Shown here piece by piece: positions 5,447 to 32,409 of a stretch of DNA of 64,000 nucleotides. The stretch spans positions 18,605-82,604 of the forward strand of contig JAHDPQ010000026.1 in NCBI GenBank assembly GCA_018434245.1, written 5' to 3'. The position numbers and the translations under genes were made by a program. The notes beneath the pieces are model-generated. The model saw nothing but the letters and a program-made list of their open reading frames with translations. It did no database searches and was not told the origin of the DNA. Within the stretch, counting starts at the first letter, position 1, and each line of letters starts with the position of its first letter. Source of the DNA: Oscillospiraceae bacterium. Its GTDB lineage: Bacteria; Bacillota; Clostridia; Oscillospirales; Ruminococcaceae.

Positions 5447-5925
5447 CCATCATCAACATGACAGTCAACGGAGTACCCCGGCAGATGGCGGTGGACGAGC
5501 GGGAATCCCTTGCCGATACTCTGCGTAACCGCCTTGGTTTGACCAGCGTCAAAAAAGGCTGTGAGGTTGGGGAGTGCGGTGCCTGCACCGTGCTAATCGA
5601 CGGCAAAGCAGTGGACACCTGCATCTACCTTTCCCTGTGGGCCGACTGTAAATCCATTCTGACAGTGGAGGGCCTGAATCGCCCTGACGGAGAGCTGACT
5701 CCCATTCAGCGGGCCTTTGTGGAGGAAGCCGCTGTCCAATGCGGATTCTGCACCCCCGGGCTGATTATGACGGCGGTGGAAATTGTGGGAACCGGAAAAA
5801 CCTACACCCGGGAGGAACTGCGCCGCCTGATTTCGGGGCATCTTTGCCGCTGTACCGGCTACCAGAACATCCTTAACGCCATGGAGCGGATTGTGGAGGA
5901 GGCCCACAAAGTAGCGGGGAAATAG
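5443..5925 (+). CDS. xdhC: Xanthine dehydrogenase family, [2Fe-2S] subunit
   Basis: This 160-residue subunit holds two [2Fe-2S] clusters. CEVGECGACTVL beginning near residue 40 is the plant-ferredoxin-type site, and CGFCTPG together with CRCTGYQ forms the second, helical cluster. This is the full set of eight cysteines seen in the CoxS/XdhC family. The GTG start at 5443 lies in a GTGA overlap with xdhB, and AGGAGGTGAG is just upstream. A strong terminator follows about 20 bases after the stop, so the operon ends here. In some nomenclatures the symbol xdhC denotes the cofactor-insertion protein instead; that gene is not present. Confidence 0.92.
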   Translation: MTIINMTVNGVPRQMAVDERESLADTLRNRLGLTSVKKGCEVGECGACTVLIDGKAVDTCIYLSLWADCKSILTVEGLNRPDGELTPIQRAFVEEAAVQCGFCTPGLIMTAVEIVGTGKTYTREELRRLISGHLCRCTGYQNILNAMERIVEEAHKVAGK

Positions 5926-7756: not shown

Positions 7757-7927
7757 CAAACCGACCCGGAATGCTTTCGGGGGCCTGTGGCCCATCGCCT
7801 ATGGGACAAGCTGTAGATTAAGTAGTTGTGCCGTTATTATCAGCCATTGACAACACGAGATCACTGGGGAAGGTGGAAGCAATCTTCCGCAGAGAAGTAC
7901 CATCAATCAATTTGGGGGCTGCGTATT

Positions 7928-15221: not shown

Positions 15222-15273
15222 CAACAGGCTGGTATCGGGTGATTCTATATTTAAGACTAGGAGGAAAAAGCCT

Positions 15274-16419
15274 GTGAAAAAAGTAGTTGCATTTCTTACA
15301 GCGATGACCTTATTGGCAGTGATCCTTGTTGGCTGCGGAGGAGGTCAGGCGACAAGTGTAAGCAATCCTCCGGCAGAAAGCCCCAACTCCACGGTAACAA
15401 GCCCCAGCCCTGCGGGTGATGCCAAACCGGCCGAAAGTCAAGCAGGTACTCTGCGCGTCGGAATGGTTACTCCCGATGCCGACCATGGTTTTACTGGTGA
15501 AAGCGTAGCACATGCCAAGGCAGAACTGGAAGCGCTCAAGGCTTCTGGCCGCATTGCGGAATTCAAGTATGAAGTAGGCGGCGAAGCAGCCCTGCAAATT
15601 GCTGCCATCGAGACCATTCTTCAGTGGGGACCCGACGTCATTGTTCTTTGGCCACTGGAAGGGGAGCAGTTGCGCAACGCGGCCCAAACCATTGTGGATA
15701 AAGGCGTTAAACTGATTATCTATGACCGCCTGATCGATGGCTTCCGCTGCGATGGTGAAATTATGGGTGACAACGAAACCATTGGCGAAATGACAGGCAA
15801 CTATCTGCTTAACTATTTCGGTGGCGAGCTAAAAGCAGGTGAAAAGCTTACATATCTCCGGTTTATCGGCGACAGTTCCACGGTTTCGGTGCAGCGCAGT
15901 GGCGGCATGGATCAAGTCATTGCAGCCTCTGAGTACAAAGATCAGTTCGAGCAGGTCCAGCAGGATTATCAGACCGACTGGTCTAACGCCAAAGCGCAGG
16001 AGCAGATGGAAAACTGGCTGAATACCTCCAGCAAAGAGAAAATTGAAGATCTTGATTTTATCGTCACCCACGACGACGAAGTAGTGGACGGTATTGTCGT
16101 TGCCTTGCAAAACTACCATGACAGCAATCCCTCTGCCCAACTGAACCTCAAGCTTATTACAGGGGTTGGCGGACGCCGGGAGACCTTAGATACCTTTGAT
16201 TCTCCTGTTGCCAATGGGATTGAAGTGCTAACCTATTTCTTCAGCCCCTCCTTCATCCGCGAATCCATTCGGCTGGGTGTTGCGGTAGGTTACGGCGAGC
16301 AATACGACAATCAAAACGTGGAAGGGCAGTTGTTCCTGATCCCCACCATTGAAATTGATAAGGATACGGTTGCGGCTTTCCGCAGCAGTACAGAATTTAA
16401 GGAGCGCTACAGCATCTAA
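15274..16419 (+). CDS. Sugar ABC transporter substrate-binding lipoprotein
   Basis: The 381-residue precursor starts KKVVAFLTAMTLLAVILVGC; the LVGC lipobox predicts a lipid anchor on the outer face of the membrane. A Ser/Pro/Ala-rich linker of about 45 residues follows, then a periplasmic-binding-protein family 4 domain beginning LRVGMVTPDADHGFT. The ribose/galactose/xylose group uses this fold, but the sugar cannot be named from sequence. The GTG at 15274 follows AGGAGG at 15259-15264, which is far better than any upstream start. A strong hairpin stands between this gene and the ATPase gene, as is common where the binding protein is made in excess. Confidence 0.9.
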   Translation: MKKVVAFLTAMTLLAVILVGCGGGQATSVSNPPAESPNSTVTSPSPAGDAKPAESQAGTLRVGMVTPDADHGFTGESVAHAKAELEALKASGRIAEFKYEVGGEAALQIAAIETILQWGPDVIVLWPLEGEQLRNAAQTIVDKGVKLIIYDRLIDGFRCDGEIMGDNETIGEMTGNYLLNYFGGELKAGEKLTYLRFIGDSSTVSVQRSGGMDQVIAASEYKDQFEQVQQDYQTDWSNAKAQEQMENWLNTSSKEKIEDLDFIVTHDDEVVDGIVVALQNYHDSNPSAQLNLKLITGVGGRRETLDTFDSPVANGIEVLTYFFSPSFIRESIRLGVAVGYGEQYDNQNVEGQLFLIPTIEIDKDTVAAFRSSTEFKERYSI

Positions 16420-16518: not shown

Positions 16519-18033
16519 TTGTTGCTGGTAGAAATGAAGAACATTGTAATGGAATTTGGTCCGATGCGCGCAGTGGATCATGTGGACTTTGCAATCAACA
16601 CAGGCGAAATTGTAGGGCTTTTGGGTGAAAACGGCGCCGGAAAATCCACGCTGATGAATATTTTGGCGGGTAGCTTTCTGCCGGTGAGAGGCGAAATTTT
16701 TATTAATGGAGAAAAGGTGCACATAACCAACGCCAAACAGGCTATGAGGCACGGTATCCGCTTTATCCATCAGGAGCTTAACCTGTGTAAGGATTTAAAA
16801 GTGTTTGAAAACATGTTTCTAGGGGAAGAAAGCAAGAAGTATGGATTATTAAATAAAAAAACGATGCGGGAAAAAAGCCAGGAGGTTTTTTTGCGCATGA
16901 AGGTCGATATCGACCCGGATGCTTTGGTGAAGGACCTACAAGCATCGGAAAAACAGCTGGTCGAAATTGCGCGGGCTCTCTTGTTTAAGAGCGATCTCAT
17001 CATCATGGACGAGCCGAGCACGGCATTGTCTAACAAGGAAATAGAAAATCTGTTTCTCATTATGAGGCAGCTGAAGCAGGAAGGTGTAAGCTTTATCTAT
17101 ATTTCCCACAAAATGCCGGAGCTCTTTGAAATATGCGACCGATACTATGTGATGCGCGACGGTAAAATGGTGGCGGACGGCAATTTTTCTGAGATTGACG
17201 AACAGCAGATTACCAAACTGATGATCGGCCGCCATCTGGAGGACCAGGGATTTACCCACAAGGAAACCTACAGCACCGGCGAAGTGGTGATGTCGGTCCA
17301 CAACATCAGCGGCAAGACCTTTCGCAACATCAGCTTTGATTTACACCAAGGCGAGATCATAGCCGTGACGGGACTGCAAGGCTCCGGTCGGGATGGCTTG
17401 GCAGACGCCATTTTTGGCGCGGAGGGCTACACAGGTGTCATTATAGTAAAAAAGGAAGCTTTTGACCAAAAGGCTTCTATTCTCAAGCGCATGAAAAAGG
17501 GGGTTGCCATGGTACCCCGCTCCCGCAAAGAACGGGGGATTTTAAATGATCTGTCTATCTGCGACAACATTTCCATCGGCTACTTTAACACCCAGCATAA
17601 AAGTATGTTGATCCATCATTCCAGAGAAAAAGAACGGTATTTGCGTCAAAAACAAAACCTTTCTATTAAATCGGAATCTCCCAAGGCTCCCGTCACATCC
17701 CTTTCCGGCGGAAACCAACAAAAGGTAATTTTGGGACGCTGGCTGGAGAGCGGTGCGGATATTTTTGTCTTCGATAATCCTACACAGGGCATTGATGTGG
17801 GCACAAAGTTTGAAATATACCACTTGATTATCGACCTTGCCAAGGCAGGGAAATCCATTCTGGTGTTTAGCTCGGAGTACCCGGAAATCATTAAGGTGGC
17901 AGATTCCTGCATGGTGATGTATAAAGGAGAAATGGCTGCGAGACTGGACCGTAAGGAGATTACGGAAGAAAAAATCATGTACTATTCAACAGGTGCAAAT
18001 CGGGAGGGAAAGAAAAATGGTGAAACAGCATAG
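16519..18033 (+). CDS. Sugar ABC transporter, double ATPase subunit (RbsA/MglA type)
   Basis: The 504-residue protein has two fused ABC domains. The first has Walker A GENGAGKST near residue 37, a relaxed signature (LQASEKQLVEIARAL) and Walker B LIIMDEPS. The second has the usual degenerate Walker A (VTGLQGSGRDG) and an intact signature LSGGNQQKV. This layout is the hallmark of CUT2-class importers for pentoses and galactose-like sugars. The start is a TTG: 16519 lies 4 bases after AGAGGGGGG and 16522 lies 7 bases after it, so 16522 is equally possible. The stop overlaps the permease gene by 17 bases. Confidence 0.93.
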   Translation: MLLVEMKNIVMEFGPMRAVDHVDFAINTGEIVGLLGENGAGKSTLMNILAGSFLPVRGEIFINGEKVHITNAKQAMRHGIRFIHQELNLCKDLKVFENMFLGEESKKYGLLNKKTMREKSQEVFLRMKVDIDPDALVKDLQASEKQLVEIARALLFKSDLIIMDEPSTALSNKEIENLFLIMRQLKQEGVSFIYISHKMPELFEICDRYYVMRDGKMVADGNFSEIDEQQITKLMIGRHLEDQGFTHKETYSTGEVVMSVHNISGKTFRNISFDLHQGEIIAVTGLQGSGRDGLADAIFGAEGYTGVIIVKKEAFDQKASILKRMKKGVAMVPRSRKERGILNDLSICDNISIGYFNTQHKSMLIHHSREKERYLRQKQNLSIKSESPKAPVTSLSGGNQQKVILGRWLESGADIFVFDNPTQGIDVGTKFEIYHLIIDLAKAGKSILVFSSEYPEIIKVADSCMVMYKGEMAARLDRKEITEEKIMYYSTGANREGKKNGETA

Positions 18034-19027
18034 CGAGGTAAAAGCTCCTTCCATTCATTTGCGGGTAAAATCTGCAATCGGCAAAGTGTTTAACGAACAC
18101 AGCTATTGGGTTTCCTTTGTCATTATTTTAATCATTGCTTTTGCGGTGGATCGCTCCTTTTTTTCCTGGGGTAATATCAGTACTATTTTTGTGCAAGCCT
18201 CTGTGACCGGCATAATTGCCCTTGGCATGAGCATGGTGATTTCGGCCGGAGAAATTGATATTTCGGTTGGTGCACAGGTTGCCATCATATCGGGACTCAG
18301 CATAGAGGTGCTCAACAAAACCAACAACATCTTTACCATGCTGCTGTTTGCCCTTGCCTTTGGGGCAATTATAGGCACAATAAATGGTTTGTTGGTAGCT
18401 TTTGGCCGCTTGCCTGCCATGATCGCCACCCTTGCCATGCAGACTATTTGCCGCTCCATCATCAACCATCTGGGACAGGGTGGGCCATTTACGGTTTCCA
18501 AAGAAAATTTTGATACATTCCGCATGATTGCAGCCGGAACTCTTTCCTTGGGAAGCATTCGGATCCCCTATCCCATGATTATGTTTATTGTGCTTTCTCT
18601 GCTGTTTGGCCTGATAATGTCCAGCACAACCCTTGGCAAGTATATTTACGCCGTGGGAAGCAACGAGACCTCCGCCCGCCTTGCAGGAATTAATGTTAAG
18701 CTGATTAAAATTACAGTCTTTCTTATTACCGGTGTACTGTGCGGTTTTTCCAGCTGGCTCTATTCTTCCCGGGTTATGGCAGTTGCAGCGGCAAGTGCTG
18801 GCAGTGCTTATGAGATGGACGCCATTGCCGCGGTTGCCATTGGTGGAACATCCATGAGTGGGGGGAGGGGCAAGATTATCGGCACATTTCTTGGAGCATT
18901 GATGTTCAAGATCATTAATGTAATACTCACCATGGCTGATGTCCCCACCTTTCTGAACGGTGCAATCAGCGGCTCCATTATAATTGTTGCAGTGCTTTTG
19001 CAGAACATACGCAATCAGGATCGATAG
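18017..19027 (+). CDS. Sugar ABC transporter permease (RbsC type)
   Basis: The 336-residue membrane protein has about 8-10 hydrophobic segments, with GIIALGMSMVISAGEIDISV and AAVAIGGTSMSGGRG, the conserved BPD_transp_2 signatures of ribose-type permeases. It would form the channel driven by the double ATPase encoded just upstream. The ATG at 18017 follows GGGAGGGAAAG and lies inside the end of the ATPase gene, so translation is coupled. A single permease gene is enough for CUT2 systems, which work as homodimers. Confidence 0.93.
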   Translation: MVKQHSEVKAPSIHLRVKSAIGKVFNEHSYWVSFVIILIIAFAVDRSFFSWGNISTIFVQASVTGIIALGMSMVISAGEIDISVGAQVAIISGLSIEVLNKTNNIFTMLLFALAFGAIIGTINGLLVAFGRLPAMIATLAMQTICRSIINHLGQGGPFTVSKENFDTFRMIAAGTLSLGSIRIPYPMIMFIVLSLLFGLIMSSTTLGKYIYAVGSNETSARLAGINVKLIKITVFLITGVLCGFSSWLYSSRVMAVAAASAGSAYEMDAIAAVAIGGTSMSGGRGKIIGTFLGALMFKIINVILTMADVPTFLNGAISGSIIIVAVLLQNIRNQDR

Positions 19028-21176: not shown

Positions 21177-22364
21177 TTAATTATCAAATCCTATGATAAA
21201 GGGGCTGGATCTCGAGAATAAAAACTGCCAGCATGCCGCAGCGGCGGCAGACATTAGATAAATGTTTTGTGGTTCCAGCAAGCGCAGGTTGACGGCGTGG
21301 CGCTGGGTAAAGATGCTCTTGGAATACAGGCTGTCCATCAGGCTGAAGTATAGGGTCTGCTGGCGGTGCAGCCATCGGCAGAATATGACGATCTCGTTGG
21401 GGTCATAGTTCATAATCACATTGCAGGTGGTGTCCACCAGATAGCGAACTGCCTGCACAAAAACCTGCTGGGCGGTTTCGTCCCCGCCTTCGGCAAGGCG
21501 GATAATTTCATCTATGTTTTGGCTTTTGCCTTCACTTTGCATGTTATATTGAGAGATGATGCCAAGGTCGGAACAATAAAGCTCCAGGCATCCGGTGTTG
21601 CCGCAGTGACAGCGGCTGCCGTCCCGCCGCACTGTAATGTGGCCGATTTCTCCAGCCAGACTGTTGGAACCGCGAAACACCTCACCCTTCATCATCACGG
21701 CGGCGCTGATTCCCTCCAGGATGGTGATGTAAACCGTGGTCTTATCCAGGGTAATCTGATTGGTGAACGCAAGATACTGGAGCCCGGCAAAGGCATCCTT
21801 ATCCACCCAAACCGGAAGATTCAGGGCAGAAAAGAGCCGTGCGCCCAAGGGAAAATCCTGCCATAGGGGCGCACCGGCTATCTCCCGGATGGTGCCGCTT
21901 TCAAAGTAAGTGGGGCCGGGCACCGTCACCCCTACGCCGGAGATGCGGTCTATTTGAATCTCATTGTCAGCAATCAGCTTGCGAATCCCTTCCACCAATA
22001 GGGCGGTATAGCTTTCGGGCCCGGCACTGTCCAGGCGTATTTCCATGTGGGTGTGGTGCAGAATCTCAAGGCCCATATTTACAATGGCGATATCGGCACA
22101 GTTCAGGCGTATGCTCACCGAAACAGCCAGTTTGAATTCCTGGTTGATTTTGTACTGCCTTGCCCTTCTGCCTCCGGTGGAATCCATCTGGCCAAAGCTT
22201 AAAACCGCACCCTTATCCACCAATTTTTCCACAATGTTCTGCACGGTAGACGCTGTAATATCACACCGTTTGCACAGCTGAGGCTTAGAGATACCGGGGT
22301 GATGTTGTATGTTTTGCAGCACATTGATGATGTTGTTGGTCCGTGTTTCCAAAGCGTTCGCCAT
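21177..22364 (-). CDS. ROK-family transcriptional repressor (NagC/XylR-like)
   Basis: The 395-residue protein joins an N-terminal winged helix (ISKPQLCKRCDITASTVQNI, about residues 24-60) to a ROK sugar-binding domain. The zinc-site motifs GEIGHITV and CHCGNTGCLE are intact, as in NagC and Mlc. It is probably a sugar-responsive repressor. It is transcribed away from the HAD-led cassette and shares a 124-bp control region with it, so it is the likely regulator of that cassette and of itself. An AAAACATAA inverted repeat in that region is a candidate operator. The ATG at 22364 lies after GGAGG. Confidence 0.9.
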   Translation of the reverse strand: MANALETRTNNIINVLQNIQHHPGISKPQLCKRCDITASTVQNIVEKLVDKGAVLSFGQMDSTGGRRARQYKINQEFKLAVSVSIRLNCADIAIVNMGLEILHHTHMEIRLDSAGPESYTALLVEGIRKLIADNEIQIDRISGVGVTVPGPTYFESGTIREIAGAPLWQDFPLGARLFSALNLPVWVDKDAFAGLQYLAFTNQITLDKTTVYITILEGISAAVMMKGEVFRGSNSLAGEIGHITVRRDGSRCHCGNTGCLELYCSDLGIISQYNMQSEGKSQNIDEIIRLAEGGDETAQQVFVQAVRYLVDTTCNVIMNYDPNEIVIFCRWLHRQQTLYFSLMDSLYSKSIFTQRHAVNLRLLEPQNIYLMSAAAAACWQFLFSRSSPFIIGFDN

Positions 22365-22397: not shown

Positions 22398-22462
22398 TTA
22401 TGTTTTTAATAACAACATCTTAAAACATAACTTAATATTATACCATATGTTTATTTTGTCAA
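22398..22462. promoter_or_regulatory. Divergent control region with 9-bp inverted repeat
   Basis: TTATGTTTT at 22398-22406 and AAAACATAA at 22422-22430 form a perfect 9-bp inverted repeat with a 15-base spacer. On the minus strand a TATAAT (22437-22442) lies just upstream of it, with TTGACA at 22457-22462; their 14-base spacing is short for a normal promoter. The repeat would overlap the start of the ROK repressor transcript, fitting an autoregulatory operator. Confidence 0.55.
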
Positions 22463-22488: not shown

Positions 22489-23313
22489 ATGAAACCTGTA
22501 ACATTTGTAGAAGTTATCACCCCCTGTACCCCAAGGGGAGAATTCCACTATGCGGTGTTTGATTTTGACGGCACCATCAGTCTGATTCGGGAGGGCTGGC
22601 AGCAGATCATGATTCCCTACTTTGCAGATGAACTGACGGCTACGCCCAAGGGAAAACACCGGAACCCACAGGAAATATGGAAGCTGGCAAGTGATTTTGT
22701 AGAATACAATACAGGCAAGCAGACCATCTACCAATGTATTTCTCTGGCGGAGGAAGTGGAAAAACTGGGGGGAACTCCGTTAACCCCACAGGCCTATAAA
22801 GAAGAGTACCACCAAAGGCTGCTAGAGCGGATTGACGGTAGACTCAAGAGGCTTAGGGAGGGGAGTATATCTCCCCAAGAGTATCTGTTGCCCGGCTCTA
22901 TTCAGTTGTTGGAACTATTAAAAAACAAGGGGATTACCATGTATCTTGCCAGCGGAACCGATGAGGAGTATGTATTCAACGAAGCTGATTTGCTGGGGGT
23001 TACCCAATACTTTAACGGCGGAATATATGGAGCCCAGACCGATTACAAAACCTTTTCCAAAAAAATGGTTATTGAAAGAATTGTGAGGGAAAACAGTCTG
23101 GCCGGGCCGGAAGTAATCGGATTTGGAGACGGGTATGTGGAAATAGAAAATATAAAGGAAGTAGGCGGATTTGCCTGCGGTATTGCCTCCGATGAGGCGG
23201 GAAAAAAAGATATAGACCCATGGAAGCGCCAAAGGTTGATAAAAGCGGGAGCCGATATCATCATTCCCCACTATGGCGACTTGCCCAGCCTGGAAGAATA
23301 CCTTTTTCGGTAG
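22489..23313 (+). CDS. HAD-superfamily phosphatase, first gene of sugar-phosphate cassette
   Basis: This 274-residue HAD hydrolase has motif I FDFDGTIS with nucleophile Asp25 and general acid Asp27, motif II in LASGTDEEYVF, a conserved Lys (KKMVIER), and motif IV IGFGDGYVEIE. It would dephosphorylate a small phosphorylated metabolite. Since a heptose-7-phosphate-kinase-like enzyme and a GmhA-like isomerase are encoded downstream, a sugar bisphosphate is a reasonable guess, in the role GmhB plays in heptose synthesis, although GmhB belongs to a different HAD subgroup. AAAGGGGAGG precedes the ATG at 22489. The next gene starts 18 bases later. Confidence 0.85.
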   Translation: MKPVTFVEVITPCTPRGEFHYAVFDFDGTISLIREGWQQIMIPYFADELTATPKGKHRNPQEIWKLASDFVEYNTGKQTIYQCISLAEEVEKLGGTPLTPQAYKEEYHQRLLERIDGRLKRLREGSISPQEYLLPGSIQLLELLKNKGITMYLASGTDEEYVFNEADLLGVTQYFNGGIYGAQTDYKTFSKKMVIERIVRENSLAGPEVIGFGDGYVEIENIKEVGGFACGIASDEAGKKDIDPWKRQRLIKAGADIIIPHYGDLPSLEEYLFR

Positions 23314-23330
23314 AGAAGGGAGAAGCCATC

Positions 23331-24299
23331 ATGCCATTTGAACACTTTGACCGTTCTAAATTAAAATTGCAGCCCCTTTCCCAGCGGACACATGACTTGG
23401 ACTTGAGGGTAATGATCAATCCTGACGAAAAACCACAGTATACCCATCCTAAAATCGATATTCTTGCAAACCGCATTGTACAGGCTAAAGAAGCAGGTGC
23501 ATCGGTGATAGTAATGATGGGAGGACATGTGGTGCGGTCTGGAGTTGCCCCCTGCCTGATCCGCCTGATGGAGGAAGGATATATCACTCACTTTGCCCTG
23601 AATGGTGCTGCCGCCATACACGATTTTGAACTTGCCCTGATCGGGCAGACCTGCGAAAGCGTTGCCAAATACATTAGCGAAGGCCAGTTCGGCCTCTGGG
23701 AAGAAACAGGGCGGTACAACGATGCTGTCAATCAGGGAGTGGAGGAGGACCTTGGCTTTGGGGAGGCGTTGGGGAAATACATAGAGGAGCATCGTTTCCC
23801 TTACCGGCAGTATAGTCTACTGGCTGCCGGCTATCGCAACCAGGTGGTGCCGGTAACGGTTCATGTTGGGGTAGGGTGCGATATCGTCCACGAGCACCCC
23901 AATGCCGATGGTGCAGCCATAGGGCAGGCCAGCTACACCGACTTTCTCATCTACACAAAGAGCGTAGAGCGTTTGCAGCACGGTGTTTTTTTAAATTTCG
24001 GCTCTGCCGTTACAGGGCCGGAAGTCTACCTCAAGGCGCTGTCTATGGTGCGCAATGTGGCAAAACAGGAGGGAAAAAGCATTGCCAATTTTACCACAGC
24101 GGTATTTGATTTACTGCCGCTGGAAGAAGAAGATATTCAGGAAGCGCCCCCAAAAAACGATCCTCGCTATTACTTCCGACCGTGGAAGACCATACTGGCA
24201 CGGACGGTGGCGGACGGTGGCGAAAGCCACTACATACAGGGAACACATCGGAACACCATACCCCTTTTAACGTATCGGCTGCTGCATGGGCAGCGATAA
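23331..24299 (+). CDS. Deoxyhypusine-synthase-fold protein of unknown function
   Basis: The 322-residue protein resembles deoxyhypusine synthase in order of segments: GGHVVRSGVAPCLIRLMEEG and THFALNGAAAIHDFELAL correspond to the NAD-binding part, and HVGVGCDIVHEHPNADGA with VFLNFGSAVTGPEVYLKAL to the later strands. The lysine that carries the aminobutyl group in true deoxyhypusine synthase (in a GGGVVKHH context) has no equivalent here; the matching position reads FGSAVTGPE. Bacteria also lack the eIF5A substrate. It is therefore more likely an NAD-binding sugar-modifying enzyme. AGAAGGGAGAAG precedes the ATG at 23331. It sits between a phosphatase and a heptose-kinase-like gene. Confidence 0.7.
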   Translation: MPFEHFDRSKLKLQPLSQRTHDLDLRVMINPDEKPQYTHPKIDILANRIVQAKEAGASVIVMMGGHVVRSGVAPCLIRLMEEGYITHFALNGAAAIHDFELALIGQTCESVAKYISEGQFGLWEETGRYNDAVNQGVEEDLGFGEALGKYIEEHRFPYRQYSLLAAGYRNQVVPVTVHVGVGCDIVHEHPNADGAAIGQASYTDFLIYTKSVERLQHGVFLNFGSAVTGPEVYLKALSMVRNVAKQEGKSIANFTTAVFDLLPLEEEDIQEAPPKNDPRYYFRPWKTILARTVADGGESHYIQGTHRNTIPLLTYRLLHGQR

Positions 24300-24332
24300 G
24301 GAAGGTTTATTACAGAAAAAGGAGGGTGGCAG

Positions 24333-25364
24333 ATGGATGAGATCCGCTTAAAGGAAATACTATCCGGTTTTTCAAGTATTCGCATTGCGGTGGCAGGAGA
24401 TTTGTTTTTGGATAAGTGGCTCTATGTAGACCGGCGGTTGGATGAGCCTTCTTTGGAAACCGGTCTGACCGCCTATCAGGTAGTGCGCGCCCGTTCCCAG
24501 CCGGGTGCTGCCGGAACGATACTGGCCAACCTGTCGGTACTAAAGGTGGGAAAGCTGTATGCGGTAGGTTTCGTAGGCGATGACGGCGAAGGCTATGACC
24601 TGCTCAAGGGTTTGGATCACATTGGTGTGGACAGAAACCTTGTACTAAAAAGCAGGGAGGTTATGACACCGGCTTATGTCAAGCCTATGTTTTTCCGTAC
24701 AGGTGGCGAGAGAGAACACAACCGTTTTGATCATAAAAATATGGGAGAAACACCCCGGGAGATGGAGCAAGCTGTCATTGAAAACATCCGGCAGGTTGCC
24801 CCTATGGTGGATGCCGTCATTGTGTTGGATCAGCTGACCTGTGAAAACACCGGTGTTGTCACAAGGGCGGTGCGGCAGGCCATTGCTCAAATAGCGCTGA
24901 ACCATCCAGAGTTGATTGTCTTTGCCGATTCCCGAGCTTTTATCAATCAGTTTCGGCATATCATTTTAAAGTGTAATAACAAAGAGGCTGCCAAACTTGC
25001 CGGAGCAGCGCAGGAAGAGCCCTTTGACCAAGAGAAGCTCTGCGACTATATGGAGCAGCTGGCTCAATCCACCCATTCCCAAGTGTTTGTCACCTGTGGC
25101 GAGCACGGTGTTTTGGTGCGGGAGAATGGAGAATGCCATCTGCTTCCGGCTGTTCGGTACAAGGGAGAAATTGATGTGTGTGGGGCGGGAGATGCCTGTT
25201 CCTCCGGCATCGTGACATCCCTTTGCGCCGGTGCCAGCTATGTAGAGGCAGCGCAGGTGGGAAATCTGGTTTCGGGTGTGACGGTGCGGAAAATCGGCAC
25301 AACGGGGACCGCCACCCATCAGGAGATCATGGATATCTTTCATGAAAGCGCAGGGAAGACGTGA
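24333..25364 (+). CDS. PfkB-family kinase, D-glycero-D-manno-heptose-7-phosphate kinase-like (HldE N-domain/RfaE1)
   Basis: The 343-residue kinase starts IRIAVAGDLFLDKWLYVD and has the ribokinase fold signatures, including VCGAGDACSSG with the catalytic base Asp287. The N-terminal pattern GDLFLDKW plus the absence of a cytidylyltransferase-like second domain fits RfaE1/HldA-type heptose kinases, which make heptose 1,7-bisphosphate. Other sugar kinases of the same family cannot be excluded. GGAGGGTGG lies just before the ATG at 24333. It overlaps the following ROK kinase start by one base, so the cassette is tightly coupled. Confidence 0.82.
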   Translation: MDEIRLKEILSGFSSIRIAVAGDLFLDKWLYVDRRLDEPSLETGLTAYQVVRARSQPGAAGTILANLSVLKVGKLYAVGFVGDDGEGYDLLKGLDHIGVDRNLVLKSREVMTPAYVKPMFFRTGGEREHNRFDHKNMGETPREMEQAVIENIRQVAPMVDAVIVLDQLTCENTGVVTRAVRQAIAQIALNHPELIVFADSRAFINQFRHIILKCNNKEAAKLAGAAQEEPFDQEKLCDYMEQLAQSTHSQVFVTCGEHGVLVRENGECHLLPAVRYKGEIDVCGAGDACSSGIVTSLCAGASYVEAAQVGNLVSGVTVRKIGTTGTATHQEIMDIFHESAGKT

Positions 25365-26323
25365 TGCTTCATTTGGATGATGTGGTACTGGCTTTGGATA
25401 TTGGGGGTTCCAAACTAATGGTTGGCCTGGCTACCCTGCAAGGAACTATATTGTGCAGCGAAAAGTTTCTGTGGGACGCCTTATCCCCTGCAGCAATCTT
25501 GGCTATGATTCAGGAAAAGGCAAGCCGGATGCTTATAAATTACCCGCAACATCAGCCGTCTGCTATAGGAGTGACCATTCCCGGCCTTGCCGATTCTGCA
25601 AAGGGCTTATGGGTGGAGTCTAGCTTTTCCGGCATTGAAAACCTGGCTATAGCAGAAGAGCTTACCAACTGCTTTGGCCTCCCCGCATATATTGGTAACG
25701 ATGCCCAAGCCTGCGCTTTGGCAGAAAACTATTACGGCAGCGGAAAGGGTACAGACCACTTTTTGTATGTCACCGTATCCAACGGTGTGGGTGGGGCTCT
25801 GTTCCTGAACGGAAAGCTGTACTGTGGAGCCCGAGGAAATGCGGGGGAAATTGGCCACTGTGTGGTGGTGGAAAACGGTAGGACATGCAAATGCGGCAGC
25901 AAGGGATGCCTTGAAATGTATGCGGCGGGCCCGGGAGTTGTGAAAAACTACAGGGAGCTGGGGGGCAAGTCGCAAATGAGCGGGCAACCGGCCAGCGCCC
26001 AACTGATTGCCCAGTTGGCACGAACAGGGGACGAAGCAGCCCGCAAAACCTTTGAACTGGAAGGATATTATCTGGGCAAAGCAATAGCCGCTGCCTGTAA
26101 CCTGCTAAACCCTGAAAGGGTGATTATAGGAGGGGGAATATCCCTTGCTTTTGATGTTTTTGAACAGTCTCTCAAAAGCACCTTTTTTCAGTCTATCTAC
26201 CAAAAAGCCAATAAAAATGTAATCATTGAGCCCACACCGCTGCGTTATTCTGGCGGCTTACTGGGTGCGGTGGCGCTGGTGCGCAGAGGCGATGGGGCAG
26301 AAAAGGGGGATGAACATGTTTAA
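25364..26323 (+). CDS. ROK-family sugar kinase
   Basis: The 319-residue kinase has the phosphate-binding DIGGSKLMVG at its N-terminus, a central NDAQACALAE with the catalytic Asp, and EIGHCVV plus CKCGSKGCLEMY as the ROK zinc site. It has no DNA-binding domain, so it is an enzyme rather than a repressor. It would phosphorylate a hexose-like or heptose-like sugar, giving the substrate for the GmhA-like isomerase encoded next. The ATG at 25364 follows GGGAAG and overlaps the kinase stop before it; a GTG three bases earlier is also possible. The stop overlaps the next gene by eight bases. Confidence 0.87.
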   Translation: MLHLDDVVLALDIGGSKLMVGLATLQGTILCSEKFLWDALSPAAILAMIQEKASRMLINYPQHQPSAIGVTIPGLADSAKGLWVESSFSGIENLAIAEELTNCFGLPAYIGNDAQACALAENYYGSGKGTDHFLYVTVSNGVGGALFLNGKLYCGARGNAGEIGHCVVVENGRTCKCGSKGCLEMYAAGPGVVKNYRELGGKSQMSGQPASAQLIAQLARTGDEAARKTFELEGYYLGKAIAAACNLLNPERVIIGGGISLAFDVFEQSLKSTFFQSIYQKANKNVIIEPTPLRYSGGLLGAVALVRRGDGAEKGDEHV

Positions 26324-26924
26324 GAATCATCTGGCAGGCTATCAAAAAGATCTGATCGGTGCAATGGGGGAAATTGACCATCAAGACTTTGAAAAGATCA
26401 TTGTTTTGTTAAAAGAGGTATATCAAAATGATCGCCAGGTGTTTGTGGTGGGAAATGGTGGAAGCGCAGGAACAGCCAATCACTTTATCTGTGATTTTGG
26501 AAAAAACGCGGTGCTTAATCCGGAAAAACGGCGGTTCCGAATCTTATCTCTTAGTGATAACGTAGAAAAGATTACTGCCTTTGGCAACGATATCGCATTT
26601 GAAGAAATATTTCGCCAGCAGATGATCAACCTGCTCAATCCAAAGGATCTGGTAATTGTGATTAGTGCCAGCGGAAGCTCCCCCAATTTGGTTCGGGCCT
26701 GTGAATACGCTCGGGAAAAGGGGGCGTATATTGTCGCTCTTTCCGGTTTTGGAGGTGGAAAGATACAAGAATATGCATCTGTTGGCATCTACACTGCCTT
26801 GAAAAGCTACGAGCAGATAGAGGATTTGCACCTGATTATTCTCCATATGATCGTCTGTTTTTTTAAATATAACCCCAACTATTTGAATGATGGCGCATTG
26901 CAGGATCAAAGAATTTGCGTATAA
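26316..26924 (+). CDS. gmhA: SIS-domain isomerase, phosphoheptose-isomerase-like (GmhA)
   Basis: The 202-residue protein matches the length and layout of GmhA (about 195). VGNGGSAGTANHFICDF at about residues 45-61 and ISASGSSPNLV at about 116-126 are the phosphosugar-binding motifs, and HLIILHMIVCFF near the end holds the catalytic-helix His. GmhA converts sedoheptulose 7-phosphate to D-glycero-D-manno-heptose 7-phosphate. The ATG at 26316 is preferred because AAAAGGGGG ends six bases upstream; the ATG at 26310 touches it. It is the last gene of the cassette. No heptose nucleotidyltransferase is encoded in the window. Confidence 0.82.
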   Translation: MFKNHLAGYQKDLIGAMGEIDHQDFEKIIVLLKEVYQNDRQVFVVGNGGSAGTANHFICDFGKNAVLNPEKRRFRILSLSDNVEKITAFGNDIAFEEIFRQQMINLLNPKDLVIVISASGSSPNLVRACEYAREKGAYIVALSGFGGGKIQEYASVGIYTALKSYEQIEDLHLIILHMIVCFFKYNPNYLNDGALQDQRICV

Positions 26925-27080: not shown

Positions 27081-29159
27081 TTAGTATTTGCCAATCTCCA
27101 TGACACCAAAGGAGGGAGGTTTTCCTTCGGAGGAGGAGTAGGGCGTATCCTGCTGCAGGTGGAACTGGCTCACCAGCTCCTTCATGATGCTGGCCTGCCC
27201 CGAAAGCTCTTCGCTGGCGGCGGCAGATTCCTCCGCTGTGGCGCTGTTGGTCTGCACTACTTCTGCAATTTGCTCCGCCCCCACCCGGATTTGTTCGATG
27301 GCGTTGGCCTGCTCCACGGCAGTGAGGGAGATGTTGTCGATAAGGTTGTTAATGATGGATACGCCTTCTACCACCGACTGCATAGCGGCAGCGGTGGCAT
27401 CGGCCAGGCGGGTGCCGTTTCTCACGGCGTTTACCGTTTCTTCAATGAGCTGGGTGGTGTTTTTGGCGGCTTCAGCGCTTTTGCCCGCCAGATTGCGCAC
27501 CTCGTCGGCTACTACGGCAAAACCCTTTCCTGCCGCTCCGGCGCGGGTTGCCTCCACGGCGGCATTGAGAGCCAGAATGTTGGTCTGGAAGGCAATATCG
27601 TCTATGGTCTTGATAATCTTGCTGATCTCTGTGGACTTGATACTGATCTCCTCAATAGCCTGAATCATCTCCTGCATCTGCAGGTTGCTATTTTCCACCA
27701 GATTGTGGGTATTTACCGATTCTTTCCGAACCTGTTGGGCGTTTTGGGCGCTCTCCTTAATTTGTTCGGATATCTCCGCAATATTGATGGAAAGCTCCTC
27801 GATGGTGCTGGCTTGATCGATGGCTCCCTGACTGAGGGCCTGGGCTCCAGCCGCCACCTGATGGGAGCCCATGGCTACCTGCTCTGCGGCGGTGTTGATC
27901 TGCCCCAGGGTGGTATTCAGGGAGGCGGAGATGTTATTTAGCGCCTCCTTGAGCCGGGAAAATTCCCCCACATAATCTAGAGAGAGCTGATAGTGCAGCT
28001 CACCCTGCGCAATCTGATTTAGAGCGGTGGACAGCTCGCGGATGTAGGAAATATAATCCCTGAGCCGGTCGACGGTGCGGCTCAGAGCCAACGCTACCTG
28101 CCCTACCTCGTCTGCGGAATTCAGGTCGATGGTGATATTCAAGTCACCGTTGGCAATGGAGTTGGCGCGGTTTCTCAGGGCTTTAAGGGGCCGTATGATG
28201 CCGATGGAAATTATCAGAATCACTCCAAGCATCACCAAAAGACCTGCGGTGAAGATCAATAGAATCTGCTTTTGAATAGCATAGTATCCCTGATAAAATT
28301 CCTTGTCGGGTAGGCAGGAAAGAACCTTCCATCCCGACTGCTCCACAACGCTGAGATACCCCTTGACCGGAGCTTCGGTGCTCTGATAGGAGTAGGCTCC
28401 CTGGGCATTTTGGGCAAAGGCCTCCTTGATGTGGCCGGAGATGTTGAGCTGGGAAATGTTCTGGCCAATCTGATTAGGGTTGGGGTGATAGACCAGATTG
28501 TTCTGAGGAGTGGCCAGAACGTAGAAGCCGGTTTTCCCCAGTGTCAGCGAGCTCATCATGGTTTTGAGCTGCTCCACCGACAAATCGATGGCCACCACGC
28601 CGATTTTGCTGCCGCCGTCGAACACCGGCTGAATGACGCTGACCACCGGCTTGCCCGTATTGGCATTCTCATAAGGCTCTGTGACAAATGCTTGAGATTG
28701 GTCCAAAGCCTGCGGATACCAGAAGCATTCGTCAATCTGGTAGTTGGTGTGCCTGCCCTGCACTACACCTCCCGGGTTCACACTGTCCCCCGAATCAAAA
28801 TCGGCGGTCCACACCAGGGAGACGCTGTCCTCTCCGGCCAAAACCCGCTCAAAACTCCTCATCGCCATGCCGTAGGAGGGAGCGGCTTGAGTGGTGCCGG
28901 GGGCATGGGTATCCTTGAGCATCTGAACCACAGCGTCGTTATTGCCGATTTGGTGAACCATCCCTAAATATCGGGCAAAGAACCCCTCTACTTGGTACGA
29001 AGCAGCCTGGGAATGGGTCATCACTTCGTCCAGGGTGATGGCCTCAATGTTCTTGCCTACCGCCTGCAAAATAATCCATGCGCAAGCTCCAAAAATAATA
29101 AAAATAGGCAGGATAATTCCAAGCAAAAGCTTGATGAAAATGCTCTTTTTCCAAAACAT
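27081..29159 (-). CDS. Methyl-accepting chemotaxis protein with Cache sensor
   Basis: The 692-residue receptor begins with a membrane helix (FIKLLLGIILPIFIIFGACAWI), then an extracellular Cache-type sensor of about 250 residues, a second helix near 300, a HAMP segment and a long coiled-coil signalling domain. The hairpin tip contains IDDIAFQTNILALNAAVEAT and GFAVVADEVRNLAG, the invariant CheA/CheW contact. Signals would be small molecules such as amino or organic acids, but none can be named. The ATG at 29159 lies after GGAGA on the minus strand; upstream ATGs add residues with no family match. No other chemotaxis gene is nearby. A leader of about 250 bases precedes it. Confidence 0.93.
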   Translation of the reverse strand: MFWKKSIFIKLLLGIILPIFIIFGACAWIILQAVGKNIEAITLDEVMTHSQAASYQVEGFFARYLGMVHQIGNNDAVVQMLKDTHAPGTTQAAPSYGMAMRSFERVLAGEDSVSLVWTADFDSGDSVNPGGVVQGRHTNYQIDECFWYPQALDQSQAFVTEPYENANTGKPVVSVIQPVFDGGSKIGVVAIDLSVEQLKTMMSSLTLGKTGFYVLATPQNNLVYHPNPNQIGQNISQLNISGHIKEAFAQNAQGAYSYQSTEAPVKGYLSVVEQSGWKVLSCLPDKEFYQGYYAIQKQILLIFTAGLLVMLGVILIISIGIIRPLKALRNRANSIANGDLNITIDLNSADEVGQVALALSRTVDRLRDYISYIRELSTALNQIAQGELHYQLSLDYVGEFSRLKEALNNISASLNTTLGQINTAAEQVAMGSHQVAAGAQALSQGAIDQASTIEELSINIAEISEQIKESAQNAQQVRKESVNTHNLVENSNLQMQEMIQAIEEISIKSTEISKIIKTIDDIAFQTNILALNAAVEATRAGAAGKGFAVVADEVRNLAGKSAEAAKNTTQLIEETVNAVRNGTRLADATAAAMQSVVEGVSIINNLIDNISLTAVEQANAIEQIRVGAEQIAEVVQTNSATAEESAAASEELSGQASIMKELVSQFHLQQDTPYSSSEGKPPSFGVMEIGKY

Positions 29160-29411
29160 AGACACGTCTCCAATCATAGATGTTGGGTTACCTACCGGGC
29201 ACCGAAACGTCCTGAGAGCTGACTGTAATATGAATGGCATAGCCTTTTTATTTCGACATTATTTTCTCAGCCATTTATATTCACTTCGCCGGGCCGGTGT
29301 GAAACAGGCAGGCTCGCCCACCTACCGCAAACAGGGTGGGTAGCGGAATCCTCCGGCAATTTTGCTCTCCCCTAAAGAAAAATGTCGGAAGATTGAAAAG
29401 TTTACGGTCAT
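29160..29411 (-). other. Long structured leader upstream of the chemoreceptor gene
   Basis: About 250 bases lie between the feoB terminator and the receptor start. Read on the minus strand, CCCACC pairs with GGTGGG around 29319-29340, flanked by an outer GCCGG/CCGGC pair (about 29290-29357). The 3' part has GGTAGGTAACC close to the ribosome site. This looks like a folded leader, but it matches no riboswitch consensus that I can recall with certainty. Confidence 0.45.
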
Positions 29412-29476: not shown

Positions 29477-31615
29477 CTAAAAGAGCCTGCCCACAGCGGC
29501 GACCAGAGCGCAGAGAATCATGCCGATCATCACCGGGAGGACAAAGGCCACCGCCGTCCACTTGAGGCTGCCGGTTTCCTTTTGGATGGTGAGAAGGGTG
29601 GTGGAACAGGGGAAGTGGAACAGGCAGAACAAAGCGGTGCACAGGGTGGTCACCCAAGTCCAGCCGTTGGCCAGGAAGAGGGCGTGAAGCTGGGAAATTC
29701 CTCCCACCTCCACCAAGGCTCCTCCCGAAACATAGCCCATGACAATGATAGGCAACACGATTTCGTTGGCGGGAAGCCCCAGAATAAAGGCCATGAGGAT
29801 GATGCCGTCCATCCCCAGCAGCCGGGCAAAGGGGTCTAGCAGTCCGGCGCAAAGAGCCAACAGGCTGCTTTCTCCCACAGTGACGTTGGCCATCACCCAC
29901 AGAAACATCCCCGCCGGAGCCGCCACCACCACCGCCCGACCCAGCACAAAGAGAGTGCGGTCCAGCAGGGAGCGGATCACAATCTGTCCGATTTGGGGCT
30001 TGCGGTAGGGGGGCATTTCCAAGGTGAAGGAGGAGGGGACTCCTCGCAGCAGGGTTTGGGAAAGAAGGCGGGAGGCCAGCAGGGTGGCGGCCACTCCCAG
30101 TACCAAAAACCCTACCAGCAACAGAGCTGATAATACAGACCCTAGCCCTTGGGAAACCTGCCCCGCCAGCAAGATGCCGATGAGGGCAATCAACATGGGA
30201 AAACGCCCATTACAGGGTACCAGAGAGTTTGTGATGATGGCGATCAGTCGCTCCCGGGGAGAATCGATGATGCGGCATCCGGTGACTCCGGCGGCATTGC
30301 AGCCAAATCCCATACACAGGGTCAGGGCCTGTTTGCCGCAAGCCCCCGCCTTTTTAAAGCTGCTGTCCAGATTAAAGGCGATGCGGGGTAGATAGCCCAC
30401 ATCTTCCAGCAGGGTAAACAGGGGGAAGAAGATGGCCATAGGGGGCAGCATGACACTGACCACCCATCCCAGAGAGCGGAACATCCCTTGGATGAGCAGG
30501 CCGTGAAGCCACAGGGGAGCTTGGAGATATGTAAATAGGCGATCCAGGTGCTCTTCCAGCTGGTTAAAGAGGAAGGCAAGACCCTCCGAGGGAAGGTTGG
30601 CTCCCGCAATGCTGAGCCAAAGCACCCCAAACAGCAGCAGGATCATCAGGGGAAGGCCCAACAGTCGCCCGGTGAGAAGGCGGTCCAGCTTGCGGTCCCG
30701 CTCCCGGCAGCGGCAGGGAACGGTGCAGACTGTTCCGGCAATGGTCTCCGCCATCAGAACAATGCAGCGAACCACAACATCTCCCAGCTTTGCCTGCTCT
30801 ACGCCGCTGTCCACAATGGACCGGCGGGCGGCGGCAACCTGCTTCAGCAGTGCCCCTTCTCCTTCCTCGTCCAGATTCATCCCTTCCAGAATCCGCCGGC
30901 CAAGGGTTTCCTCTCCTTCAATGAGGCGTAGGGCGGCCCAGCGGGACGGAAGCTTTTCTCCAAGATGCTGTTCCAGCAGCGGCTGGAGGGAAGCGACAGC
31001 GGCTTCGATCACCGGGGTGTAGCGCACGGGAACAGGGGCGGTTTTGATTTGGCCTCCGGTGAGAGACTCCATTGCCGCCATCAGCTCTTCCAACCCATAG
31101 CCTTTTCGGGCATTGGTTCCCACCACCGGAATCCCTAGTTTTTTGGAAAGAGCCTCAAGATCAACGGTGATTCCCACCCGCTTGGCCTCATCCATCAGGT
31201 TGACGCAAAGCACCACGTTGGGGGTAATTTCTAAGGTTTGCAGCACCAGATTAAGGTTTCGCTCCAGACAGGTGGCATCGGCCACCACGATGGCGGCATC
31301 GGCTCCCCCAAAGCAGAGGAAGTCTCGGGCGATCTCCTCCTCCACCGAGCTGGAAAGCAGGGAGTAGGTACCGGGCAGATCTACAAACCGATAATCGGTC
31401 TCCCCCCGCCGGTGAACCCCTTGAGCGTTGGTTACGGTTTTGCCCGGCCAGTTACCGGTGTGCTGCCGTAGCCCCGTCAGTGCGTTGAACACGGTGCTTT
31501 TTCCCACATTGGGGTTCCCCGCCAGAGCGATGAGCCGCTCTCCGGCGTGGGTTCGCTGAATACTTTCGCTTTGATCCAATGCGCCGATGCCGGTAGATGC
31601 TTTCGTCAATCCCAT
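29477..31615 (-). CDS. feoB: Ferrous iron transporter FeoB
   Basis: FeoB imports Fe(II) across the cytoplasmic membrane. This 712-residue protein has the N-terminal G domain with GNPNVGKST at residues 33-41, the G3 motif DLPGTYSL and the NLMDEAKR specificity region. Its C-terminal half is a permease of about eight or nine helices, with two Gate domains containing GFGCNAAGVTGCR and GLPANEIVLPI. The cysteines in the first Gate motif are conserved in the family. AGGAGGAGC lies just before the ATG at 31615. FeoA is encoded 11 bases upstream. A divergent DtxR-type regulator suggests repression in iron- or manganese-rich conditions. Confidence 0.96.
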   Translation of the reverse strand: MGLTKASTGIGALDQSESIQRTHAGERLIALAGNPNVGKSTVFNALTGLRQHTGNWPGKTVTNAQGVHRRGETDYRFVDLPGTYSLLSSSVEEEIARDFLCFGGADAAIVVADATCLERNLNLVLQTLEITPNVVLCVNLMDEAKRVGITVDLEALSKKLGIPVVGTNARKGYGLEELMAAMESLTGGQIKTAPVPVRYTPVIEAAVASLQPLLEQHLGEKLPSRWAALRLIEGEETLGRRILEGMNLDEEGEGALLKQVAAARRSIVDSGVEQAKLGDVVVRCIVLMAETIAGTVCTVPCRCRERDRKLDRLLTGRLLGLPLMILLLFGVLWLSIAGANLPSEGLAFLFNQLEEHLDRLFTYLQAPLWLHGLLIQGMFRSLGWVVSVMLPPMAIFFPLFTLLEDVGYLPRIAFNLDSSFKKAGACGKQALTLCMGFGCNAAGVTGCRIIDSPRERLIAIITNSLVPCNGRFPMLIALIGILLAGQVSQGLGSVLSALLLVGFLVLGVAATLLASRLLSQTLLRGVPSSFTLEMPPYRKPQIGQIVIRSLLDRTLFVLGRAVVVAAPAGMFLWVMANVTVGESSLLALCAGLLDPFARLLGMDGIILMAFILGLPANEIVLPIIVMGYVSGGALVEVGGISQLHALFLANGWTWVTTLCTALFCLFHFPCSTTLLTIQKETGSLKWTAVAFVLPVMIGMILCALVAAVGRLF

Positions 31616-31626
31616 GTGTGCTCCTC

Positions 31627-31860
31627 CTATGACTGTACCAGAATTTGAGCGGAGTCCTCGCCCCGCAGTGCAATGAGAGCGCCGCGAATCTCGTAGGCCA
31701 CCGGGTCTCCTGAAGGCCCGGAGTAAATGCTTTTGACTAAGGTGCCGTCAATCAGTCCTAAATCCAAAAGCCGGCGGCGCATTCTGCCGTGAGAGAGCAG
31801 TCCGCTGACCCGGGCCTGAGAGCCAACAGGTAGTTTGTTGAGGGTGAGATTATGTTCCAT
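31627..31860 (-). CDS. feoA: FeoA-domain protein
   Basis: This small cytoplasmic 77-residue protein has an SH3-like FeoA fold: LPVGSQARVSGLLSHGRMRR, then LLDLGLIDGT and VAYEIRGALIALRGEDS. FeoA associates with FeoB and is needed for iron uptake. It is the first gene of a two-gene operon with feoB on the minus strand. AAAGGATAA precedes the ATG at 31860. The start lies 111 bases from the divergent metalloregulator start. Confidence 0.93.
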   Translation of the reverse strand: MEHNLTLNKLPVGSQARVSGLLSHGRMRRRLLDLGLIDGTLVKSIYSGPSGDPVAYEIRGALIALRGEDSAQILVQS

Positions 31861-31879
31861 GATTCTATTATCCTTTCAT

Positions 31880-31914
31880 GTTGGGAGTGTGAAAAAGAGT
31901 TTCCATATCCCAAC
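31880..31914. promoter_or_regulatory. Inverted repeat between feoA and the DtxR-type regulator
   Basis: GTTGGGA at 31880-31886 and TCCCAAC at 31908-31914 form a perfect 7-bp inverted repeat with a 21-base spacer in the divergent region. It is a candidate metalloregulator site, but it differs from the known DtxR and MntR boxes as I recall them. Confidence 0.4.
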
Positions 31915-31971
31915 TTATGCAGGATATCTTTATGGGGTTCCGAATATGATGTAAAAAAGGAGGTGGAAACA

Positions 31972-32409
31972 ATGAAGGATGATACCATGCGCACCGTCAA
32001 AGGGTATCAGCTTCAAAACAAGAGCCGCCTGACCCAGTCTCTGGAGGATTATCTAGAGATGGTTTACCGGCTGGAACGGGGCGTGGGCTTTGTCCGGCTG
32101 GGGGAGCTGGCCCAGCGGTTGGGGGTGGGGGCTCCCTCCGCCAGCAAAATGGTACAAAAACTGGGGGGCTTGGGCTTTGTGCATTATGAACGCTACGGTG
32201 TGATCCGGCTGACCGGGGCGGGGCGGGAGGCGGGGAGCTACCTCATCCGCCGCCACGAGGTGGTGCGCCGGTTTTTCCAGCAGCTTCATCCCCGGGGCGA
32301 CACCCTGCAGGAAACCGAACTGGTAGAGCACTGCCTGTCTCCCGGCACCGTAGAGCGGCTGGAGCAGCTGGTGGAAATTTTAGAGCAAAACCCCAAGCTG
32401 CTTTCCTAG
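31972..32409 (+). CDS. DtxR/MntR-family metal-dependent transcriptional regulator
   Basis: The 145-residue protein has the DtxR winged helix (LTQSLEDYLEMVYRLERG, then RLGELAQRLGVGAPSASKMV) followed by a dimerisation domain with RRHEVVRRFFQQLH and ELVEHCLSP, where the metal-binding His and Glu residues lie. There is no C-terminal SH3 domain, as in MntR. The ATG at 31972 follows AAAAAAGGAGGTGG. Its position opposite feoAB points to iron control, although MntR-type proteins often sense manganese. Translation from an upstream start at 31852 would add 40 residues with no family match and overlap the feoA start. Confidence 0.9.
   Translation: MKDDTMRTVKGYQLQNKSRLTQSLEDYLEMVYRLERGVGFVRLGELAQRLGVGAPSASKMVQKLGGLGFVHYERYGVIRLTGAGREAGSYLIRRHEVVRRFFQQLHPRGDTLQETELVEHCLSPGTVERLEQLVEILEQNPKLLS

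Follow-up and report, generated by a model that had tools for sequence, protein, structure and literature searches.

We analysed a stretch of 64,000 nucleotides (hereafter, the window) from an Oscillospiraceae bacterium (assembly GCA_018434245.1, contig JAHDPQ010000026.1, positions 18,605 to 82,604), focusing on a five-gene cassette whose second gene encodes a full-length member of the family of Geobacter sulfurreducens GSU2086 (NF052581, "GSU2086 family"). This family probably acts in a heptose-type sugar-phosphate pathway. More tentatively, with a likelihood a little short of even, we propose that its members are hydride-transfer epimerases or oxidoreductases of seven-carbon (C7) sugar phosphates that replace HldD, the window carrying a form that lacks a nucleotidyltransferase (NT) and is linked to uptake by an ATP-binding cassette (ABC) transporter.

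The cassette encodes, in this order, a HAD phosphatase, the GSU2086-family protein, a PfkB kinase, a ROK kinase, and a SIS isomerase. The five frames lie on the plus strand, with successive gaps of 17, 33, −4, and about −14 nt, and their families were assigned using Pfam and NCBIfam. An earlier sequence-only reading of the window had described five tightly coupled genes resembling those of heptose phosphate metabolism, and both points were borne out, as the cassette enzymes are relatives of heptose-pathway enzymes.

Identity of the GSU2086-family protein

The window protein matched NF052581 over residues 6–314 (399 bits; cut-off 250), a family to which NCBIfam gives a name and no function or reaction. 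The ArgZ-like C-terminal Rossmann domain PF21570 was also detected (30.1 bits; cut-off 27), yet over only 63 of its 213 positions. In profile comparisons (hhalign), the GSU2086 family was related to 13 TIGR00300 proteins (probability 96.3, E 1.6e-9, 66 columns), all 13 of which matched the TIGR00300 model in an identity check, and to six proteins of the DS family, that of deoxyhypusine synthase (DHS; PF01916), across 148 columns that take in the Gly-rich loop (probability 93.6, E 2e-7). The DS and TIGR00300 profiles were less similar to each other (probability 14) than either was to the GSU2086 family. The part common to all three was the NGAGxIHDFE loop. A profile search against the PDB retrieved ArgZ-type chains (E 8e-5 and 2e-4), 3c2q (E 0.006), and a DHS chain (E 1.1).

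Membership of the DS and TIGR00300 families was rejected. The Pfam DS model had no match in the window genome (E ≤ 0.001) or in the window protein (E ≤ 0.1), and the match to the TIGR00300 ornithine cyclodeaminase model reached 25.9 bits against a cut-off of 410.8. The sequence-only reading had aligned the protein with DHS; the likeness stands as a superfamily resemblance at profile level, but judged by these matches it lies outside the DHS family. It shares about 65 residues of a motif of the nicotinamide adenine dinucleotide (NAD) domain with TIGR00300 and the ArgZ/AgrE C-terminal domain, from which it differs in that its gene is surrounded by sugar genes. The same sugar context sets it apart from DHS. 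Below-cut-off DS matches, detected in two GSU2086-family relatives (19 chosen relatives' genomes searched), and the DHS chain at E 1.1 are what would speak for a true deoxyhypusine or polyamine-modifying enzyme, an explanation that we consider highly improbable: the window protein itself has no DS match, its neighbours are sugar genes, and separate DS proteins above the cut-off were found in 6 of these 19 genomes.

In a sample of 398 genomes from the window's phylum, NF052581 was above its cut-off in eight. Elsewhere in this phylum, weak partial matches were observed at 22 loci (L012–L033), of which the 13 scanned matched TIGR00300. Overall, 33 of the 41 genomes of the phylum with an NF052581 match had it below the cut-off, a possible source of misannotation if cut-offs are ignored.

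Conserved residues

Phylogenetic trees divided the family into clades A to D, the window protein belonging to clade A. Deep nodes of the trees were weak: clade C was supported at 0.995 in a tree of 110 sequences and at 0.218 in a tree of 219, in which "clade A" denotes the remainder. Conservation was counted on the 110 proteins of clades A to C, five partial matches being left out of the alignment and tree, as was clade D from the counts. Ten residues had a conservation value of 1.00: D98, E100, E109, D184, D204, E231, N242, and D260, as well as K235 and R283, which were constant (110 out of 110). Together they look like an active site.

The sequence-only reading had based an argument on the lysine-bearing GGGVVKHH region of DHS, which reads FGSAVTGPE in the window protein. 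In the alignment of the six DS-family proteins, however, the GGGxPK lysine varied, and it was in (S)WGK that both W and K were invariant; the argument thus compared the wrong site. In the window protein, K286 falls near the WGK lysine in a forced global alignment only. This residue was kept in all 95 clade A and B proteins and in none of the 15 clade C proteins; a lysine near this site is not universal in the GSU2086 family.

A non-catalytic protein, acting as a nucleotide- or sugar-phosphate-sensing subunit or as a scaffold for the kinase and the isomerase, would be consistent with domain fusions (see below), tight gene coupling, and divergence from catalytic DHS. The ten conserved, active-site-like residues argue against such a role, which we regard as very unlikely.

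Genomic partners of the GSU2086 family

Relatives were found in at least 558 stretches of species genomes. Neighbours were counted for the nearest 80 (within 3 kb, same strand, contig ends scored as misses), which came from Clostridia, Planctomycetota, Acidobacteria, Armatimonadota, Chloroflexi, and others; among these best 80 of at least 558, the nearest named relatives by the GSU2086-family protein were Clostridiales and Planctomycetaceae metagenome-assembled genomes (MAGs). A PfkB kinase was present at 60 of the 80 loci, a HAD phosphatase of the cassette kind at 48, and both together with the GSU2086-family gene at 43. The link to sugar kinases, whose absence would have spoken against the earlier proposal, is thus common: pairing with HldE-type kinases was frequent, and pairing with SIS/GmhA-type isomerases less so. 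Chance clustering was rejected, given the recurrence of cassette pairs in these relatives and at Planctomycetota loci.

Some loci resembled that of the window closely. A Clostridiales MAG contig (L034) carried ten genes, from the ABC ATPase to the SIS gene, in the same order and including the reversed repressor, and most of these ten were present at L042 and L076. Another genome of the window's phylum (L134) combined, in a different order, a regulator, the GSU2086-family protein, PfkB, HAD, ROK kinase, SIS, ABC ATPase, and permease genes (labels by reading). A Chloroflexota plasmid carried Gfo, DeoC, ABC, HAD, GSU2086-family, PfkB, and SIS genes, and a Solidesulfovibrio plasmid a PfkB gene, the GSU2086-family gene, and a SIS gene in a row. 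The order in an archaeal MAG was transaldolase, HAD, GSU2086-family gene, NT, NT-kinase, and SIS, and two Lachnospiraceae loci showed an NT-kinase fusion accompanied by GmhB-like and SIS-like genes (the last two by reading). Fusions to a GmhA-like SIS domain were observed at L135 and L043, and a fusion to a cytidylyltransferase-like, HldE-type NT domain at L143. The fusion at L043 (Ornatilinea apprima) belongs to clade B and shares its contig with a HAD/GSU2086/PfkB triad of clade A (3834–5534 and 10001–10972); transport-like genes lie between the two.

The window cassette may not be heptose-specific, HldE-, GmhA-, and ROK-like enzymes having been recruited for another imported sugar or glycoside and the GSU2086-family protein providing a hydride-transfer step. 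The ABC importer, Gfo/Idh/MocA, and IolE-like genes kept at L034, L042, and L076 are compatible with this, as are the DeoC gene of the Chloroflexota plasmid, the lack of an HldE nucleotidyltransferase, and a kinase and a SIS protein that score below the HldE and GmhA cut-offs, respectively. The ties of clade C to HldE, LpxK, and GmhA-like genes, described below, argue against this explanation, which we consider unlikely.

Independent data come from Geobacter sulfurreducens, in which GSU2086, by its locus number, lies between hldE and gmhA. In the transposon-sequencing table for electrode growth (PMC5585712), it is labelled "Hypothetical cytoplasmic protein in sugar biosynthesis operon", and its score (−3.2) resembles those of hldE (GSU2085; −3.1) and gmhA (GSU2087; −3.7). 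The terms hldD, rfaD, and gmhB are absent from the main text of that article. As annotated, the Geobacter HldE comprises a kinase and an adenylyltransferase; the window kinase lacks the latter, and the cassette differs further by its ROK kinase, HAD phosphatase, and importer. Judged by titles and abstract openings of the papers listed, a literature search returned nothing further on the GSU2086 family.

Lipid A context and HldD in Planctomycetota

In 246 sampled Planctomycetota genomes, the GSU2086 family was above the cut-off in 127, the HldE nucleotidyltransferase domain was detected in 210 (E ≤ 1e-25; 172 above the cut-off), and HldD in 60 (E ≤ 1e-78; 59 above the cut-off). Among the matches listed (150 NT rows), 87 genomes had both the gene and the NT domain; in 56 of them, the NT domain started 1.0–2.9 kb downstream of the gene and in the same orientation. 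This distance is as expected if a bifunctional HldE directly follows the gene, as it did in the examples read (L151, L152, L155–L158, and L160).

Within 4 kb of the 92 clade C loci, we found NT (62 loci), PfkB (65), LpxK-like (56), lipid A acyltransferase-like (43), GmhB-like (13), GmhA-like (9), and heptosyltransferase-like (6) genes. Of the 92 loci, 81 had a gene of one or more of the last five kinds; these five labels reflect similarity to one example or two per kind, of which a single one per kind was checked by Pfam. For the loci, 126 of the 127 were used, G678 being left out and so counted among 120 "gene-less" genomes. At L161–L163, the clade C copy follows an LpxK-like gene, HldE lies outside the fetched stretch, and the next gene looks, by reading, like an endonuclease III type.

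The family was positively associated with the NT domain, present in 118 out of 127 genomes with the gene versus 92 out of 119 without it (p 6e-4), and negatively with HldD (8 out of 127 versus 52 out of 119; p 3e-12). Both the gene and HldD were found in 8 genomes, the gene alone in 119, HldD alone in 52, and neither in 67. When only the 210 NT-positive genomes were considered, the corresponding numbers were 7, 111, 52, and 40 (p 1e-16), so that HldD accompanied the gene rarely (7 out of 118, versus 52 out of 92 without the gene). By clade, HldD was present in 5/92 (C), 1/16 (A), 0/1 (B), and 2/17 (D) genomes. In a separate set of 41 chosen genomes with the family, it was above the cut-off in three. 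Clade D comprised 17 divergent Planctomycetota members on a long branch (1.28), L166–L169 and 13 others, the four seen being 366–391 residues long.

Two forms of the adjacent kinase

In a tree of the adjacent PfkB domains (147 of 154 kinase domains kept), the window kinase belonged to a clade of 69 (support 0.997) without any NT-bearing protein. By contrast, NT was carried by 61 of the 65 clade C partner kinases. Nine kinases beside clade A-labelled genes also carried NT, four of them inside the clade C kinase group and five apart.

The same distinction was searched for at the genome level. Among 35 chosen genomes of named loci, NT matches were strong in 22 (E ≤ 2.4e-45), weaker in six, and absent in seven (E ≤ 1e-3), with 12 above the curated cut-off. 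Of 11 family-bearing genomes chosen from the window's phylum, NT was strong in three (E ≤ 3.9e-50), weak in one, and absent in seven, including that of the window; none was above the cut-off. The sequence-only reading had noted a cassette without nucleotidyltransferase, and this extends to the genome, in which TIGR02199 (the HldE NT domain) had no match at E ≤ 0.001 (genome 91% complete).

An ABC set was found beside the cassette in six genomes (window, L034, L042, L076, L141, and L134). None of the six had an NT above the cut-off, a single weak match being detected in L034 (E 1e-13); the window therefore appears to represent an uptake-linked form without known nucleotide activation. Loci with an ABC gene somewhere in the vicinity (L038, L043, L139, L083, L039, and L145) are not counted among the six. 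Of these loci, the genomes of L038, L043, and L139 had no NT match, and that of L083 had a strong one, its better-scoring ABC gene lying 8.7 kb away; the genomes of L039 and L145 were outside the NT search.

We also considered that the GSU2086-family protein, while acting in heptose-type metabolism, yields some other C7 compound, whether a further epimer, a deoxy sugar, a keto sugar, or something cyclitol-like formed from sedoheptulose 7-phosphate. The scarcity of the protein in HldD genomes would then stem from end products that differ, and not from a shared reaction. The partner evidence fits this as it fits an HldD replacement, and the NT-less kinase clade, the HAD phosphatase, the transaldolase gene in L110, and the transketolase genes on the Solidesulfovibrio plasmid agree with it. 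The position of the Planctomycetota gene among lipid A genes, before an NT-bearing HldE, fits ordinary ADP-heptose supply instead, and we consider a different product somewhat unlikely.

Organization of the window around the cassette

The features of the cassette region are listed in Table 1. The window kinase is a relative of the HldE kinase domain, and the window isomerase one of GmhA, both belonging to the ADP-heptose pathway (GmhA-HldE-GmhB-HldD), the genes of which adjoin the clade C relatives; neither window protein reaches the cut-off of its model (TIGR02198 and TIGR00441, respectively). The window differs from that pathway by a genome without an NT match or HldD above the cut-off, and by the importer attached to the cassette. 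GmhB models were absent from the NCBIfam matches of the window HAD protein.

The ROK repressor, previously described as facing the cassette, is in fact divergent from it, the two lying back to back with 124 nt between them. The candidate operator in this interval is AT-rich, and its half-site pattern could be due to chance. Promoter-like sites (10, versus 6.0 ± 2.6 in the shuffled background) and terminator-like sites (5 versus 5.4) were near background.

Table 1. Features of the cassette and its surroundings (window coordinates).
Feature	Position	Strand	Basis
LacI-family regulator (PF00356)	14172–15221	+	
Periplasmic sugar-binding protein of the ABC system (PF13407)	15172–16419	+	Start codon uncertain, scanned part 15262–16416
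Sugar ABC transporter ATPase, xylose/allose/arabinose type	16519–18033	+	Pfam, NCBIfam
Ribose-type sugar ABC permease	17993–19027	+	Pfam, NCBIfam
Gfo/Idh/MocA oxidoreductase; neighbour kept in L034, L042, L076	19033–20085	+	Pfam, NCBIfam
Xylose-isomerase-like TIM barrel (PF01261), IolE-like; neighbour kept in L034, L042, L076	20148–21140	+	Pfam, NCBIfam
ROK-family repressor, N-terminal winged helix-turn-helix (HTH) and ROK, divergent from the cassette	21177–22364	−	Pfam
Candidate operator, half-sites TTATGTTTT / AAAACATAA / TATGTTT ~24 nt apart, divergent intergenic region	22398–22452	.	
HAD phosphatase (PF00702), cassette gene 1	22489–23313	+	Pfam
GSU2086-family protein (NF052581), DHS/ArgZ-superfamily NAD-domain motif; candidate C7-sugar-phosphate epimerase/oxidoreductase	23331–24299	+	NCBIfam, profile comparison
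PfkB kinase, relative of the HldE kinase domain (TIGR02198 130.7 bits, cut-off 345)	24333–25364	+	Pfam, NCBIfam
ROK-family sugar kinase, no HTH match	25361–26323	+	Pfam, NCBIfam
SIS-domain isomerase, GmhA-like (TIGR00441 98.9 bits, cut-off 209.45)	26310–26924	+	Pfam, NCBIfam

Other genes of the window were labelled by reading the sequence. Directly after the cassette, on the opposite strand, is a gene for a methyl-accepting chemotaxis protein (27081–29240). A FeoB-like ferrous iron transporter (29477–31615, minus strand) adjoins a DtxR/MntR-like regulator (31852–32409, plus strand). A protein of 1393 residues (7826–12007), probably secreted, combines repeated Ig-like segments with a stretch resembling an amidase (VDPGHGGSDTGALGF).

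Proposed function

The GSU2086-family protein would work beside an HldE-type kinase in C7 (heptose-type) sugar-phosphate metabolism. A hydride-carrying nucleotide cofactor, most likely NAD as in DHS, would sit in its DHS/ArgZ-like domain, and on a heptose phosphate or heptulose phosphate a single hydroxyl would be oxidised and then reduced back, as in an epimerase or isomerase. Stereochemistry would be set around the 7-phosphate stage, ahead of nucleotide activation. Hydride transfer is suggested because of the DHS/ArgZ-like motif, an epimerase role because HldD is seemingly replaced in lipopolysaccharide (LPS)-type clusters, and a step near the 7-phosphate stage because of the fusions to GmhA-like domains and the frequent position of the gene ahead of the kinase. 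We infer this chemistry from sequence likeness and context, and regard it as possible, if somewhat below an even chance. The new heptose pathway proposed in the sequence-only reading is accordingly narrowed, as a hypothesis, to a step alternative to that of HldD.

In heptose-making bacteria with clade C, where the gene stands beside HldE and lipid A genes, the protein would take the place of HldD. The window variant combines a clade A protein, HAD, an NT-less kinase, a ROK kinase, and a GmhA-like isomerase. Genes of an ABC importer for sugar, a Gfo/Idh/MocA dehydrogenase, and an IolE-like enzyme are coupled with it, and the divergent ROK repressor next to it may control it. This form probably serves the use of imported sugar: a C7 sugar or one like it would be taken up and phosphorylated by the ROK kinase, the GSU2086-family protein would correct its stereochemistry, and the SIS protein would then isomerise the product towards the pentose-phosphate pool.

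Several points weigh against this proposal. The HAD and PfkB proteins have no obvious catabolic role in the uptake form, and placing the reaction at C6 and at the 7-phosphate stage is guesswork. Bacteria can also do without an epimerase and use D,D-heptose, and 67 of the 246 Planctomycetota genomes carry neither the gene nor HldD. The p-values for HldD ignore shared ancestry, and part of the effect may be due to lineage. Clade D mostly lacks the partners (HAD and PfkB each at 3 of the 17 loci), and the three Geobacter scores could reflect polarity. As for the fold, the similarity to DHS is confident in the N-terminal half only, the C-terminal half aligning only if forced, and the PDB search reaches ArgZ chains at E 8e-5 but a DHS chain only at E 1.1. 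The cofactor may not be NAD, since the nearer relative, TIGR00300, is labelled "nickel-pincer nucleotide-dependent" by NCBIfam; our literature search turned up no paper on this dependence. Finally, in the window's genus the family was present in only 2 of 11 genomes searched, so that its function there is accessory (4 of the 41 relatives searched in all).

A bolder version would make the family a second C6 epimerase, unrelated to HldD, of the DHS/ArgZ superfamily (NAD- or nickel-pincer-dependent), which would act on heptose phosphates by hydride transfer and stand in for HldD in many Planctomycetota and other bacteria, with the NT-less module serving heptose uptake and breakdown in anaerobes such as the host of the window, for instance of L,D-heptose shed from LPS. 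We consider this version quite unlikely.

Significance

The GSU2086 family is widespread among bacteria, yet its name conveys no function, and it makes a good candidate for a step of heptose pathways that has so far escaped notice. Its placement among heptose genes, together with its rarity alongside HldD in the sampled Planctomycetota, raises the question of a second natural heptose epimerase. Which step the family performs bears on LPS core assembly and on the consumption of heptoses by anaerobes.

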